Shown here piece by piece: positions 21,029 to 28,332 of a stretch of 30,147 nucleotides of DNA; positions within the stretch are counted from its first letter, which is position 1, and each line of letters begins with the position of its first letter. The position numbers were made by a program, and so were the translations under genes. The notes under the pieces were generated by a model. The model saw only the letters and a program-made list of their open reading frames with translations, did not search any database and was not told the origin of the DNA. This stretch comes from a virus: IMG/VR virus record IMGVR_UViG_3300030333_003802, positions 1 through 30,147 of that record. One strand, given 5' to 3'.

Positions 21029-22111
21029 ATGTGTGGAATATATGGTTTAGCGAAAAGTCCGACGACTTACACCAAGCGACAATTCAAAACTGTCAAAAAG
21101 GTATTAAGAGAAATTGCAGTAGATAGTGAGACTAGAGGTGCTCACTCGTCTGGAATTGCACAAGTCGGAAACAAAACTAAAATACATAAATCACTACTTC
21201 CGTCTTCCAAATTCGTGGACAGCAAAGGTTATATAGAAGCAGTTAAATCTTTAAAAGATGGAAACTATATTCTATTAGGACACACACGATTTGCGACAGA
21301 AGGTGCTATTGTAAAGAATAATGCTCACCCATTTAGAGTTGGCGATACTATCGGCGCTCATAATGGTTGTGTCTATAATATTGAGGAAATGCAGACAAAG
21401 TTAGATAAACAATGTCCAGTAGATAGTCAATTAATATTCAAGGCAATAGACGATAATGATAACATAGACGAAGCAGTTAAACATTTTGACAGCGATTTTG
21501 CATTGTCATTTGTTAAGACAAATCCTATGGTATTACACCTATGTCGTGAGGACAATCGTCCTTTGTATGTAGCATATGTCCCAAGTTTGCTAACTCTATT
21601 TTATGCAAGCGAAGCGACTTTTATTGAGAATGCTTTGATTGCGTGTAATTTAGACGCAGAGATATATTCATTAAATAAGAATACTTTATATTCTTATGAT
21701 GTATCTAAGTTTAGCGACTTACAGACAAATGTAGAAAAAAGCGACTTTGAATACGAAAGTAGAGAATATAATTTCAGTATCAATAATTATTCTTCCAACG
21801 ACGAATTTGACGATTGGAATAGTTATAATTATAGTTATGGGAATTATCGTCCTCTATATGACACTTCACATCTTTACGACACAAATGGAAACCTAATTGA
21901 TAGTGAACTTGAAGCCGAAAAACAAGAGCTTTTGACTTGTTATGGCGGAAATCCTAACAACTGGTTTTTTGACGAAATGGAAGGTATGTGGAGTTATCTT
22001 GATGAATATACTGGACAAATTTGGACAGAAACCCAACTTATAAATGGGAATTTTCAACAAGAAATTGACTTTGAAGAGGAGACAGACAATGCCCAACCAA
22101 TACGAAACTGA
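21029..22111 (+). CDS. Class II glutamine amidotransferase (Ntn hydrolase)
   Basis: A 360-residue protein starting MCGIYGLA: after Met removal Cys2 is the N-terminal nucleophile. The class II set is present: RGAHSSG (36-42), GHTRFAT (84-90), N98/H100-P in 'NNAHPF', GAHNG (109-113) and the DSQLIF stretch (132-137). It would hydrolyse glutamine and pass on ammonia. The C-terminal 130 residues are acidic, with Asn/Tyr/Asp-rich sequence (SYNSYGNY-type), and contain no synthetase domain such as AsnB or PurF carry, so the acceptor must be handled by a partner. The next gene, overlapping by 23 bases, is an amidoligase, the partner expected for this arrangement. Ribosome site AAGGAG precedes ATG by six bases. 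Confidence 0.88.
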   Translation: MCGIYGLAKSPTTYTKRQFKTVKKVLREIAVDSETRGAHSSGIAQVGNKTKIHKSLLPSSKFVDSKGYIEAVKSLKDGNYILLGHTRFATEGAIVKNNAHPFRVGDTIGAHNGCVYNIEEMQTKLDKQCPVDSQLIFKAIDDNDNIDEAVKHFDSDFALSFVKTNPMVLHLCREDNRPLYVAYVPSLLTLFYASEATFIENALIACNLDAEIYSLNKNTLYSYDVSKFSDLQTNVEKSDFEYESREYNFSINNYSSNDEFDDWNSYNYSYGNYRPLYDTSHLYDTNGNLIDSELEAEKQELLTCYGGNPNNWFFDEMEGMWSYLDEYTGQIWTETQLINGNFQQEIDFEEETDNAQPIRN

Positions 22112-23639
22112 AACGACGCACGAGAATGCCCAGAATACAATACTATTGCAATGCGATGATTGTGGAAACGAAGTCCGCGAGGACGACTTAACTGGCACAG
22201 ACGACGGAAATGAAGTCTGTGAGGACTGTTATGATAACAATTATTCCGAGTGTTATGGTTGTAGTGGTGTTATGGTTCACGACGATATGCATTACTATAA
22301 TGGTGATTATTATTGTGAAGACTGTTTTTACGATAATTGTTTTCATTGTGCAAGTTGTGGAGAACCAGAGCATTTAGACTATTCTCGCTACGACGACCAT
22401 AGTGGAGATACTTACTGCGAAGGTTGTTATGAAGAATATGGTGGTGAGGAATACGACTGGAATGTCTTTTCAAATGAATATGTTCAAGTAAACGACGATT
22501 TTGCTTCTCCGACTAAAAACCTATACAAAAGCGATACTTACGACTTAATCCCAAGTCGCAGATATCAAGGTATAGAGGTTGAGGCAAATCATAATGGAGA
22601 CTATTCACGAGACAATATTGCAAGAGCTATTGCAGAGAGAATAGACGATACAAGGTTGGAACAGATGTTTGACGAAGTTAGTCAAGCAGAGTTTCCCGAC
22701 TGGTATAAGATAAGTGGCATTCAAGTAGTAAGTGATGGAAGTATAACAGGTGGCGACGATGGTTATGGTTATGAATATGTAATGACACCGCGTCGCGGAG
22801 ACCAACTATATACTGATATGTGTTTACTTACAGACACACTTGTAGACTATGGACATTACATTAGTAGAAAGTGTGGCTATCACTTACACATTGATATTAG
22901 AGACTACGACTATTATCACTTAACCTGTCTTATGGCTATGGTTAAGTTAATAGAACCTCATATATACTCTTGGGTTCCGCAATCCCGACTTACTGGGAAT
23001 TGGTGTCGTCCGATATCTCAAAACTGGTATGACTTTAATGGCATATACGACAGAGATGATTTCATTGAGATTTATTACGACAATGGTAATAAATTTAGAT
23101 ATGAAAAATATCACGACAAAAGGTATCACGGTTTTAACCTACACTCTCACTTTGGGAGCAATCAAGGTTTAGAACTGAGATATCACGGCGGGACACTCAA
23201 TCCGACTAAAATGTTGCATTGGAGTATTCTTTGGGGACAGATAGTAGATAAATGTTATGAACTTGGAAATGAACTCAAGACACAAGTTGATAGACGAAAT
23301 TTCTTTAAGGACATAACATTTGACAAGAGATATGGCGACGAGACGAAAGGGTTTAGAAATCCGACTATGGACATACAAAACCTTTTTGAGACTTTTGACA
23401 TACCTCAAACAACGAAAGACTACTATGGAATGCGACAAAAGGAGATAGAAAATAATCCGAATACTTCTCCGACGCATTTCGTTGATTGTTTTTCAAAGAC
23501 TTCACATATTGTGGAGTTTGACAAAGCGACAATGAGTTTCAATACAGTCAAAAAACTACCTCACAGGGTAGGGAGATATGGGACTTTACAGGAACTCACA
23601 TACGACGATATAAGCAGTCATTTTGAGATTGCCTCGTAG
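22089..23639 (+). CDS. Zinc-ribbon amidoligase (COOH-NH2 ligase fold)
   Basis: The 516-residue protein starts at ATG 22089, seven bases after GAGGAG; a start at 22044 would lie deep in the amidotransferase and lacks a site. Residues 20-115 form three zinc ribbons with paired CxxC knuckles: C22/C25-C44/C47, C55/C58-C76/C79, C87/C90-C110/C113. Residues 155-400 match the Amidoligase_2 pattern: GIEVE (161-165), SDGSI plus YEYVMTP (215-234), CGYHLHIDIRD (262-272), NLHSHFG (350-356) and LELRYHGGTLN (361-371). This fold, related to glutamine synthetase and GCS2, uses ATP to join a carboxylate to an amine. Family knowledge places it next to glutamine amidotransferase genes, as here. Acceptor unknown; the ribbons may select a protein or nucleic-acid target. 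Confidence 0.85.
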   Translation: MPNQYETETTHENAQNTILLQCDDCGNEVREDDLTGTDDGNEVCEDCYDNNYSECYGCSGVMVHDDMHYYNGDYYCEDCFYDNCFHCASCGEPEHLDYSRYDDHSGDTYCEGCYEEYGGEEYDWNVFSNEYVQVNDDFASPTKNLYKSDTYDLIPSRRYQGIEVEANHNGDYSRDNIARAIAERIDDTRLEQMFDEVSQAEFPDWYKISGIQVVSDGSITGGDDGYGYEYVMTPRRGDQLYTDMCLLTDTLVDYGHYISRKCGYHLHIDIRDYDYYHLTCLMAMVKLIEPHIYSWVPQSRLTGNWCRPISQNWYDFNGIYDRDDFIEIYYDNGNKFRYEKYHDKRYHGFNLHSHFGSNQGLELRYHGGTLNPTKMLHWSILWGQIVDKCYELGNELKTQVDRRNFFKDITFDKRYGDETKGFRNPTMDIQNLFETFDIPQTTKDYYGMRQKEIENNPNTSPTHFVDCFSKTSHIVEFDKATMSFNTVKKLPHRVGRYGTLQELTYDDISSHFEIAS

Positions 23640-26495: not shown

Positions 26496-27117
26496 AAAAG
26501 AAGAACCTCAATATCCTTCGGCAGAAGAGATGTTGGATATGCAAATAACAGCAGAAATGAATGCTAATATTTGCGACAAACACCAATGGGTTTCAGAACA
26601 ACCTACTCCTCAAGACGTAGTTAAAAGCAGAAATGGTTTTGATTATGTAGACGAAGGATATATGCGTTGGAGATTAAACCAACATTATCCTATTTGGTCT
26701 TGGGAAGTAGTTAAATATGAGACTCTTGGAGATAAAGCTATAGTGGTTCACGGACGTCTAAAGGTTATAGACGAAGGTGTTCCTCGTAGTTTTGACGCAG
26801 TTGCGGCGCATAGAATAGCTCAAGCTAGAAGTGGTTCAGGATATGTAGACTTAGGTAATGACTTAAAAGCTGCAAATTCAGACGCTTTTAAAGTAGCTGT
26901 AAATAGACTATGTAATGTAGCAGATGATGTATATAGAAAACAATATGTAGACAAGTCTCTTAACAAGGAACAGTCTGATTATTTATATCTATGTATGTCT
27001 CAAATGGATACTGGCGAAGCGAAGAAAGTCGAAGCTGCTTTAGTATCTGGTAAGATAAATAAAGACAATTATGATAAAGTAATTGATAAACTAAAAAAGG
27101 GAGTTAAAGATGAGTAA
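26488..27117 (+). CDS. Rad52-type single-strand annealing protein (probable)
   Basis: A 209-residue product, ATG 26488 after GGGAG. The pattern 'WSWEVVKYE', then 'VHGRLKVIDEG', then 'SFDAVAAHRI', then 'LKAANSDAFKVAVNRLCNVADDVYRK' (about 128-155) is the Rad52/Sak-like beta-beta-beta-alpha core, in which the DAFKxA helix binds ssDNA. The context between an exonuclease and an SSB-like gene, the standard phage recombination trio, supports this. The C-terminal 40 residues are a helical extension. I would place it at moderate certainty because annealing proteins diverge widely. Confidence 0.6.
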   Translation: MVKKEEPQYPSAEEMLDMQITAEMNANICDKHQWVSEQPTPQDVVKSRNGFDYVDEGYMRWRLNQHYPIWSWEVVKYETLGDKAIVVHGRLKVIDEGVPRSFDAVAAHRIAQARSGSGYVDLGNDLKAANSDAFKVAVNRLCNVADDVYRKQYVDKSLNKEQSDYLYLCMSQMDTGEAKKVEAALVSGKINKDNYDKVIDKLKKGVKDE

Positions 27118-27667
27118 TGTTACTGATGTATTGAACGACATAGATAATGACGTGGCTTATTACAATCCTTCAGAAGATACTACTGGAGCAGAGAAGAAGT
27201 TATTGCCTGAAGGAACATATGAAGCAAATGTTCATAAGTTAACAGTAAAAAATAACATTATAGTTAAAAATCAATATCTTAGTGATATATATGAGGCTAT
27301 ATATGTTATAGACGGAACGAAGCATCCAGAATTTGCTAATAAGCAAGTTAAATCAAAAGGATACTTTAGATTTAAGAAGCCCGACGAAAAGAAATATCCT
27401 AACCTTAAAGATAATCAAGGTAATAATAAAGGATATATGATATTCACAGAGGCTTGTGGCTTTGAGATGCAGAAAGACGAACAAGGAAGATATCTTCTTC
27501 CAGTAGTTATGGAGTCTGATATTGCTGGAAACCCAGTAAACATCAAAGTTGTTCACGATAAGTGGACTAACTCAGAAGGAGAGCAAAGAGTTACTCCTTT
27601 GGCAGTTAATGTATTTAAATCTAAAGAGAGAGTAAAACCACTAAATGACGAGGAGTTACCATTTTAA
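27110..27667 (+). CDS. Single-stranded DNA-binding protein, DUF669-like with SSB tail
   Basis: A 185-residue product overlapping its neighbours at both ends. Residues 30-165 have an OB-like beta pattern (LPEGTYEANVHKLTVKN, IYEAIYVIDG, VVMESDIAGNPVNIKVVHD) as in DUF669 phage SSBs. The C-terminus is NDEELPF, an acidic tip ending in Pro-Phe that mimics bacterial SSB tails which recruit repair enzymes. It would coat ssDNA produced by the exonuclease and hand it to the annealing protein. Confidence 0.75.
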   Translation: MSNVTDVLNDIDNDVAYYNPSEDTTGAEKKLLPEGTYEANVHKLTVKNNIIVKNQYLSDIYEAIYVIDGTKHPEFANKQVKSKGYFRFKKPDEKKYPNLKDNQGNNKGYMIFTEACGFEMQKDEQGRYLLPVVMESDIAGNPVNIKVVHDKWTNSEGEQRVTPLAVNVFKSKERVKPLNDEELPF

Positions 27668-27900
27668 TGGACTACTTAATCAAATTAGATGAAGAGCAAT
27701 TAATGGCTTTAATTGAGATGATAGAAAAGAATAGATGTGAAGGCGAAGAGGAAGTATGTTCTCAAGTTAGAACATCTATCAAATCTCAGTTTCAGTCGCA
27801 GTATAAAGAAAAGGAACAAATTGTTTCAGTCGATTCCGAGGATGTCTTGGAAAGAGCTAAACAGACTATGGGTCCTAATTACTGTGACAACTGTGATTAA
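27667..27900 (+). CDS. Small cysteine-containing hypothetical protein
   Basis: A 77-residue product; ATG overlaps the SSB stop (TAATG). Helical and acidic/Gln-rich, with C24 and C31 and a C-terminal YCDNCD. A terminal zinc pair is possible. It is the last gene before the structured non-coding region. Confidence 0.65.
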   Translation: MDYLIKLDEEQLMALIEMIEKNRCEGEEEVCSQVRTSIKSQFQSQYKEKEQIVSVDSEDVLERAKQTMGPNYCDNCD

Positions 27901-27957
27901 TATATTGTGGAGTATGGTTAATCCTACTAACACAACTAGCGGACTTCACAATATATT
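27899..27957 (+). ncRNA. Long hairpin after gene 27667
   Basis: AATATATTGTGGAGT (27899-27913) pairs with ACTTCACAATATATT (27943-27957): 15 bp with one G-T pair, around a 29-base loop. Only TTTT follows, so terminator function would be weak. It begins on the stop codon itself. Confidence 0.65.
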
Positions 27958-27967
27958 TTAAAAGAGT

Positions 27968-28098
27968 TAATATTCCCTTCTCACAATACGCTTTAAAAGG
28001 AAGCGGGCAGGTAGACAATCCTGTTTACCCTTTAATAAACGTACGCAAATACAATTCGGTTGGCGCAGAATTGAAATATAACAGAGAAGGGAATATTA
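27968..28098 (+). ncRNA. 131-nt multibranch RNA element of unknown class
   Basis: A perfect 15-bp closing stem, TAATATTCCCTTCTC (27968-27982) with GAGAAGGGAATATTA (28084-28098), encloses three hairpins: CGCTT/AAGCG (27989-28005), GGTAGAC/GTTTACC with a G-T pair (28010-28029) and CAATTC/GAATTG (28052-28073). Single-stranded joints are AAT-rich. The element lies 15 bases before ATG 28114. Its closing strands can equally be read as terminal inverted repeats, but an RNA with three nested hairpins is the simpler reading. Not matched to a known class. Confidence 0.65.
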
Positions 28099-28113
28099 TC
28101 TATAGGGAGAATT

Positions 28114-28332
28114 ATGGAAGTTTCTAAATGGAATAAAATTATGGACACGTTTCAAGACTTACTTGGATGGGATAAAGGTATCACTGAAGTTATTGTGACT
28201 AAAAGATTATCTAAAATAGGTAGAAAGAGTATTATAGACTTAACAGATAGGGAAGAAAAATATCTTGTCCATATATTAAGAAAAAGATATAGGGAGTGTT
28301 TAGATGAGGTTGAGAGAAAAGATTCTAATTGA
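28114..28332 (+). CDS. Hypothetical protein, 72 residues
   Basis: GGGAG lies six bases before ATG 28114. All-alpha, basic-to-mixed sequence: SKWNKIMDTFQDLLGWDKGI, VIVTKRLSKIGRKSI, then an Arg/Lys-Glu helix ending RECLDEVERKDSN. Overlaps the next gene by 29 bases. No family recognised. Confidence 0.65.
   Translation: MEVSKWNKIMDTFQDLLGWDKGITEVIVTKRLSKIGRKSIIDLTDREEKYLVHILRKRYRECLDEVERKDSN

Follow-up and report, generated by a model that had tools for sequence, protein, structure and literature searches.

The phage genome studied here carries, between two genes of its recombination and replication operon, a stretch of DNA with the potential to fold into a branched RNA closed by a long stem. 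We asked whether this stretch is a functional RNA, whether it has relatives, and what it might do. The window is the whole stretch of DNA that was analysed (30,147 nucleotides, positions 1 to 30,147 of IMG/VR record IMGVR_UViG_3300030333_003802). The element sits on the + strand between a gene predicted to encode a 77-aa protein (27667-27900) and one predicted to encode a 72-aa protein (28114-28332). Upstream of this gap are exonuclease/recombination-type genes and a gene for a 185-aa protein (27110-27667), and downstream are genes for a RusA-like resolvase and a DnaB-like helicase. A Shine-Dalgarno-like GGGAG and the start codon of the 72-aa gene (28102-28116, + strand) follow just 3' of the element. 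This agrees with a preliminary description that had placed the element in an inter-gene space of this operon, close before a start codon. At 21029-22111 and 22044-23639 the window also has early genes that look like those of a glutamine amidotransferase (GlmS-type N-terminal part) and of an amidoligase. The terminase has a distant resemblance to its counterpart in ICP2-type phages, with 27% identity.

The preliminary description had reported a perfect 15-bp stem closing a multibranch fold. The 5' strand of this stem, which we call P1 (TAATATTCCCTTCTC, 27968-27982), is the exact reverse complement of the 3' strand (GAGAAGGGAATATTA, 28084-28098). The 131-nt strand has an MFE of -41.3 kcal/mol compared to -21.4 +/- 3.2 for dinucleotide shuffles (z = -6.2), and 0 of 200 shuffles were as good. 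Among inverted repeats with a loop of 40-160 nt, the window has a single perfect one of 15 bp, located exactly at 27968-28098. Such a repeat was present in 2 of 100 first-order Markov sequences of window length, so that the stem alone (p ~ 0.02) is suggestive and not decisive, leaving the decision to a comparison of the family.

Relatives were taken from IMG/VR contigs containing homologues of the 185-aa gene upstream and the 72-aa gene downstream of the element. More copies were gathered by pattern searches, a neighbour-protein search, and three covariance models made from copies at the 3' end of the operon (R1), from leader copies (R2), and from diverse leader copies (R3). R1, containing 3'-end copies only, detected the window copy with E = 2.6e-9 for its genome. 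R2, containing leader copies only, detected copies from a second phage group (group 2) with E-values down to 1.9e-9 and several mid-operon copies weakly. These matches tie the leader, mid-operon, and 3'-end types together. None of the three models found a second copy in the genome of the window. Pattern matches in L134, L136, L137, L140, L142, L144, L146, L150, and L075 were dropped as being without the fold or context of the element. A core-pattern scan of bacterial and archaeal genomes gave 15 matches, mostly in GC-rich actinobacteria, that were judged by composition to be chance; the one inspected (L166) was GC-rich, lacked a closing stem, and was rejected by eye.

We then compared 31 copies from uncultured phage contigs in a block alignment made by hand. 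This set includes near-identical copies and the edges of P1 were picked by complementarity, so the pair counts reflect non-independent events; with this understood, standard pairs were observed at 309 of 310 sites in P1 (3-5 pair types per position), 154 of 155 in P2 (4-5 pair types at most positions), and 153 of 155 in P3, where P2 and P3 are the two hairpins next to the 5' strand of P1. Exchanging the 3' strands between copies in 1000 trials gave means of 149, 75, and 125 and maxima of 208, 102, and 138 for P1, P2, and P3, respectively. The sequence of P1 is completely different between lineages (TTCCCTTCTC, TTTGGCCTAC, TTTTCCCCTC, GTGGTGGATA, GACGGACAGA, TGCAGGCAGT, TGAAGGGCAT, and others), each with its own complement, and pairing is kept. 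P3 covariants include GCGGG/CCCGC, GTCGG/CCGAC, GAAGG/CCTTC, and GTGG/CCAC. An automated covariation score for six leader copies, with rows padded with N to help the aligner, was 0.947 compared to 0.304 when shuffled and 0.05-0.11 when slid. Chance had been considered very unlikely in the preliminary description, and it is the covariation across the 31 copies that settles this point; from the comparative evidence we are certain that the window element is not a chance structure. There are compensatory changes across independent copies and homology detected by the models across contexts, as is characteristic of a conserved structured RNA family. The preliminary description had named, as a refutation, relatives in which the reading frames persist while the stems fail to covary; the comparison did not bear this out. 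This sequence evidence strongly supports a real function for the element as an RNA whose fold is selected.

The alignment also points to the molecule that functions. G-T pairs are fixed in one orientation, at the first pair of P3 in 20 of the 31 copies and at the third pair of P2 in 12. These are wobble pairs in RNA from the + strand and C-A mismatches on the other strand, which identifies the + strand early-operon mRNA as the functional molecule. A motif-plus-stem scan of the relatives gave one match in each and two in L027, all on the early strand, and zero copies on the other strand. A feature acting at the level of DNA, such as a replication origin hairpin or a protein-binding inverted repeat, or else chance, would be in keeping with the location in replication operons and with the inverted repeat. 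However, because the G-T pairs have one orientation and the copies are always on the early strand, we regard this as extremely improbable.

The conserved architecture is comprised of P1 enclosing P2 (5 bp, with a loop usually ending in AGG) and P3 (5 bp, with mostly an 8-nt loop) followed by ACCYU, CAAAUAC, and GGUUGGC. In the window, P2 is CGCTT[TAAAAGG]AAGCG (27989-28005, 7-nt loop), P3 is GCAGG[TAGACAAT]CCTGT (28007-28024), and a conserved ACCCTT run is at 28027-28032. A conserved single-stranded stretch, CAAATAC...GGTTGGC, spans 28047-28064, and no other sequence in the element varies as little as the GGTTGGC within it (28058-28064). The preliminary description had proposed three independent hairpins. 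Three are indeed predicted, but they agree only in part with the conserved structure. The middle hairpin of the MFE fold is an 8-bp GGTAGACA/TGTTTACC helix that differs from the conserved P3 and is probably not the native one. The third, CAATTC/GAATTG (28052-28073), has a poorly conserved helix, and it is the GGTTGGC in its loop that is conserved there. From the sequence comparison we propose that the P2 loop and ACCYU form a pseudoknot (AGG/CCU in most copies, AAGG/CCUU, and UAGG/CCUA in L176), for which the ACCCTT run in the window could base-pair with AAGG in the P2 loop. GGUU[GGCA]AACC forms a hairpin of its own in several leader copies. Pairing of GGUU with the P3 loop (AAYC) is plausible in most copies, but it shows no compensatory change and does not fit L176 or L127, and was rejected.

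Some leader copies are reduced to 60-62 nt, keeping P1 and GGUYUGGC or a variant without P2 and P3. The single-stranded stretch described above is present even in these minimal copies, where P1 and a GGUYUGG(C/A) loop alone remain and the overlap with a small open frame, described below, is retained. These copies, of about 60 nt, are at L013:875-936, L014:1115-1174, L016:1093-1152, L021:1112-1173, L036:1304-1365, L039:951-1012, and within 813-1073 of L023. The loss of P2 and P3 tolerated by several leader copies suggests that the conserved core is not essential everywhere. A distant leader-like candidate with GGUUGGCAAACC, an 8-bp closing stem, and an open frame is at L153:1085-1169 (contig G051:3877-3990); its P2 and P3 are unrecognisable (24 bits, E = 0.002).

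Searches of Rfam 15 with the window copy and several others returned zero families at the gathering threshold, and relaxed thresholds gave scattered weak matches only, different for each copy. A ribozyme was one of the functions suggested in the preliminary description; none of the ribozyme classes in Rfam was matched at either setting. A self-cleaving ribozyme of an unknown class would be compatible with the compact multibranch fold, the proposed pseudoknot, and the conserved unpaired residues; with no Rfam ribozyme match, open frames running through the leader copies, and P2 and P3 lost in the minimal copies, we consider it very improbable. A nucleotide search of 50,697 phage records (cultured phages) found no relative, the one match being 25 nt long and at chance level (E = 0.1), and among open-access papers we found none describing the element. 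This is a previously undescribed structured RNA family that is absent from Rfam. As judged from the sequences compared, its members are structured RNA modules of 60-160 nt that uncultured tailed phages of marine origin carry in their early mRNA for replication/recombination.

The place of the RNA in the genome varies. In most relatives the gene before the element in the window (p27) ends in TAATG, which overlaps the start of the gene after it (p28), and there is no insert. An insert of approximately 144-158 nt with the same closing stem and core is found between p27 and p28 in L002, L003, L004, L010/L011, L024, L027, and L038. Relatives without this insert carry the RNA elsewhere and, in most, it is behind a promoter at the 5' end of the early operon. 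These leader copies are directly 3' of a sigma-70-like promoter (often TTGACT or TTGGAT, a spacing of ~17 nt, and a TATTAT-like box) that we assigned by eye, and some are also preceded by a terminator. In group 2 the RNA is at the 3' end of the replication operon, approximately 45 nt before a convergent late gene and with no gene behind it. Upstream of P1, at a distance of 5-9 nt, most group-2 copies have a hairpin of 9-13 bp whose sequence is unrelated and changes while its pairing is kept. The window copy is adjoined upstream by a second long hairpin with a 15-bp stem in the predicted fold (27899-27957, + strand). This hairpin is absent from the mid-type relatives examined; most group-2 copies have one of unrelated sequence at the equivalent place. 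AGCCACCGA is conserved downstream of the RNA, ahead of the convergent late gene, in L066, L074, L083, L087, and L098, mostly followed by an A-rich run. It is also found in L092, where the RNA has decayed.

Relatives missed by the motif-plus-stem scan carry variants that were seen by model or by eye; L037 has its copy in the neighbouring locus L151, and L017 is truncated. When five mid-type and nine group-2 contigs were scanned in this way over large parts of their length, no extra copies were found, and the count of one copy per genome is provisional because the contigs are fragments. L027 has two copies with different closing stems, one in the leader (L027:1087-1217) and one in the middle of the operon (L027:4799-4931). 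This pair probably captures a duplication at a stage when the leader copy has not yet been lost. A tree of the 185-aa protein places the mid-type phages in two lineages within one supported group that includes L027, and the mid-operon copy of the window is probably descended from a duplicated leader copy.

The gene behind the RNA may be p28, groES, one of several unrelated small genes, or none. For instance, L081 has a phage groES-like gene immediately behind an RNA copy (L081:5336-5593). A riboswitch or cis-regulator for one gene, as the preliminary description had suggested, is therefore unlikely by comparison of the loci, because the downstream gene differs and is absent in one phage group. 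Since the RNA occurs at differing places as one copy, we conclude from these genomes that it is a self-contained module independent of a particular neighbour. This would also be true of a trans-acting small RNA that is cut from the early mRNA and acts as a free decoy or regulator, so that place and neighbours are irrelevant. Such an RNA would be independent of location, would normally be present once per genome, and could have 3'-end copies with no gene behind them, and, in most group-2 copies, the structure-conserved hairpin immediately before the RNA could shield the preceding mRNA once the cut is made. However, the leader copies are within a maintained open frame, the RNA has no terminator of its own, and we found no convincing promoter or terminator at the window copy. 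We consider a trans-acting RNA possible but doubtful.

A processive antitermination RNA of the HK022 put or Bacillus EAR type would modify RNA polymerase in the early operon. This operon is long, some leader copies are right behind a terminator and promoter, and a position upstream of the genes or terminators to be passed fits the leader copies; EAR is likewise a structured RNA in the middle of an operon. By contrast, group-2 copies at the end of the operon have only antisense DNA of the convergent gene behind them, and there is no strong intrinsic terminator on the + strand behind the element in L031 or in the window. Thus, antitermination is an improbable function for the family.

All full leader copies except L019 are inside one open frame of approximately 39-62 codons. 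The ATG of this mini-frame is 1-11 nt before P1 or inside P1, mostly without a Shine-Dalgarno sequence. It is often 5-11 nt behind the proposed -10 box and is often predicted to be leaderless. In most copies the stop codon overlaps or nearly touches the start of the next gene. The mid copies have an open frame without a start codon, with only an in-frame GTG in the mid copy of L027, and in L010 and most group-2 copies every frame is interrupted by stops. This suggests that translation is a feature of the leader form only. The peptides differ, with substitutions that look near neutral in two small groups, and GGUUGGC is read in different frames among leader copies. Together with the stops, these observations indicate that RNA, and not protein, is conserved, and we rejected a coding explanation. 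Frameshifting and bypass were considered only, and nothing in the frames favours them.

The mini-frame raises the possibility of a cis-acting leader element of the early operon in which P1 hides or gates the mini-frame start and, via the stop/start overlap, the first real gene, or in which the RNA stabilises the mRNA end. The leader copies begin at or just behind the 5' end, have an ATG at the edge of P1 or inside it, and have a stop overlapping the next start, and a ribosome-binding site is within ~10 nt behind the mid copies and L081. However, the RNA is followed by differing genes, and in several group-2 lineages by none, the mid and 3' copies are without the mini-frame, and the peptide changes look close to neutral. 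We therefore entertain this reading with considerable reservation.

The explanation that we tentatively prefer, with confidence a little short of even, is that the element is a factor-binding RNA module of early transcripts that acts on the whole transcript or in trans and not on one gene. The module would fold on its own, and a host or phage protein would be offered the pseudoknot between the P2 loop and ACCYU together with the GGUUGGC loop. The function would be binding, to recruit or titrate that factor, and the effect would not be exerted via a particular downstream gene. Because the leader module is inside an open frame, translation of the mini-frame and folding of the module would exclude each other, and this could time the early operon. 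Translation through the leader copies fits poorly with an RNA that needs to stay folded. It is conceivable, and we propose it with caution, that these RNAs form a movable early-phage class, a protein-binding or host-takeover module that can change place among leader, mid-operon, and end positions in the replication operon, and whose leader form overlaps a leaderless mini-gene with translation competing with folding. Were its partner a host factor, the RNA would count as a phage takeover RNA. With this family an uncultured marine phage group gains a structured RNA that is well supported, and there is a clean system in which to study how an RNA can change its place in an operon, and in some copies apparently be translated, without losing its fold.

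Several known RNAs resemble the element in part. HK022 put RNAs, found in phage leaders, and the Bacillus EAR element, found between genes in the middle of an operon, are small structured RNAs that act within the transcript. The present element is similarly small, structured, and in leaders or between operon genes, but it can also be at the operon 3' end and has no Rfam match. The autoregulatory pseudoknot of T4 gene 32 is likewise a structured RNA in phage replication-gene mRNA and is bound by a phage protein, whereas the present element is larger, has three helices, is not tied to one gene, and gave no match. The phi29 pRNA is a phage RNA of similar length (~120 nt) closed by a long helix; the present RNA, by contrast, lies within early operons, its tailed phages have ordinary genes for portal and terminase, and it has no Rfam match. 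The manA and wcaG motifs are structured RNAs of marine metagenomes and cyanophages reported near metabolic genes of cyanobacterial phages (PMC2864571). As marine phage RNA motifs they are the nearest to the present element by setting, and the Rfam scans of the element matched neither of them.
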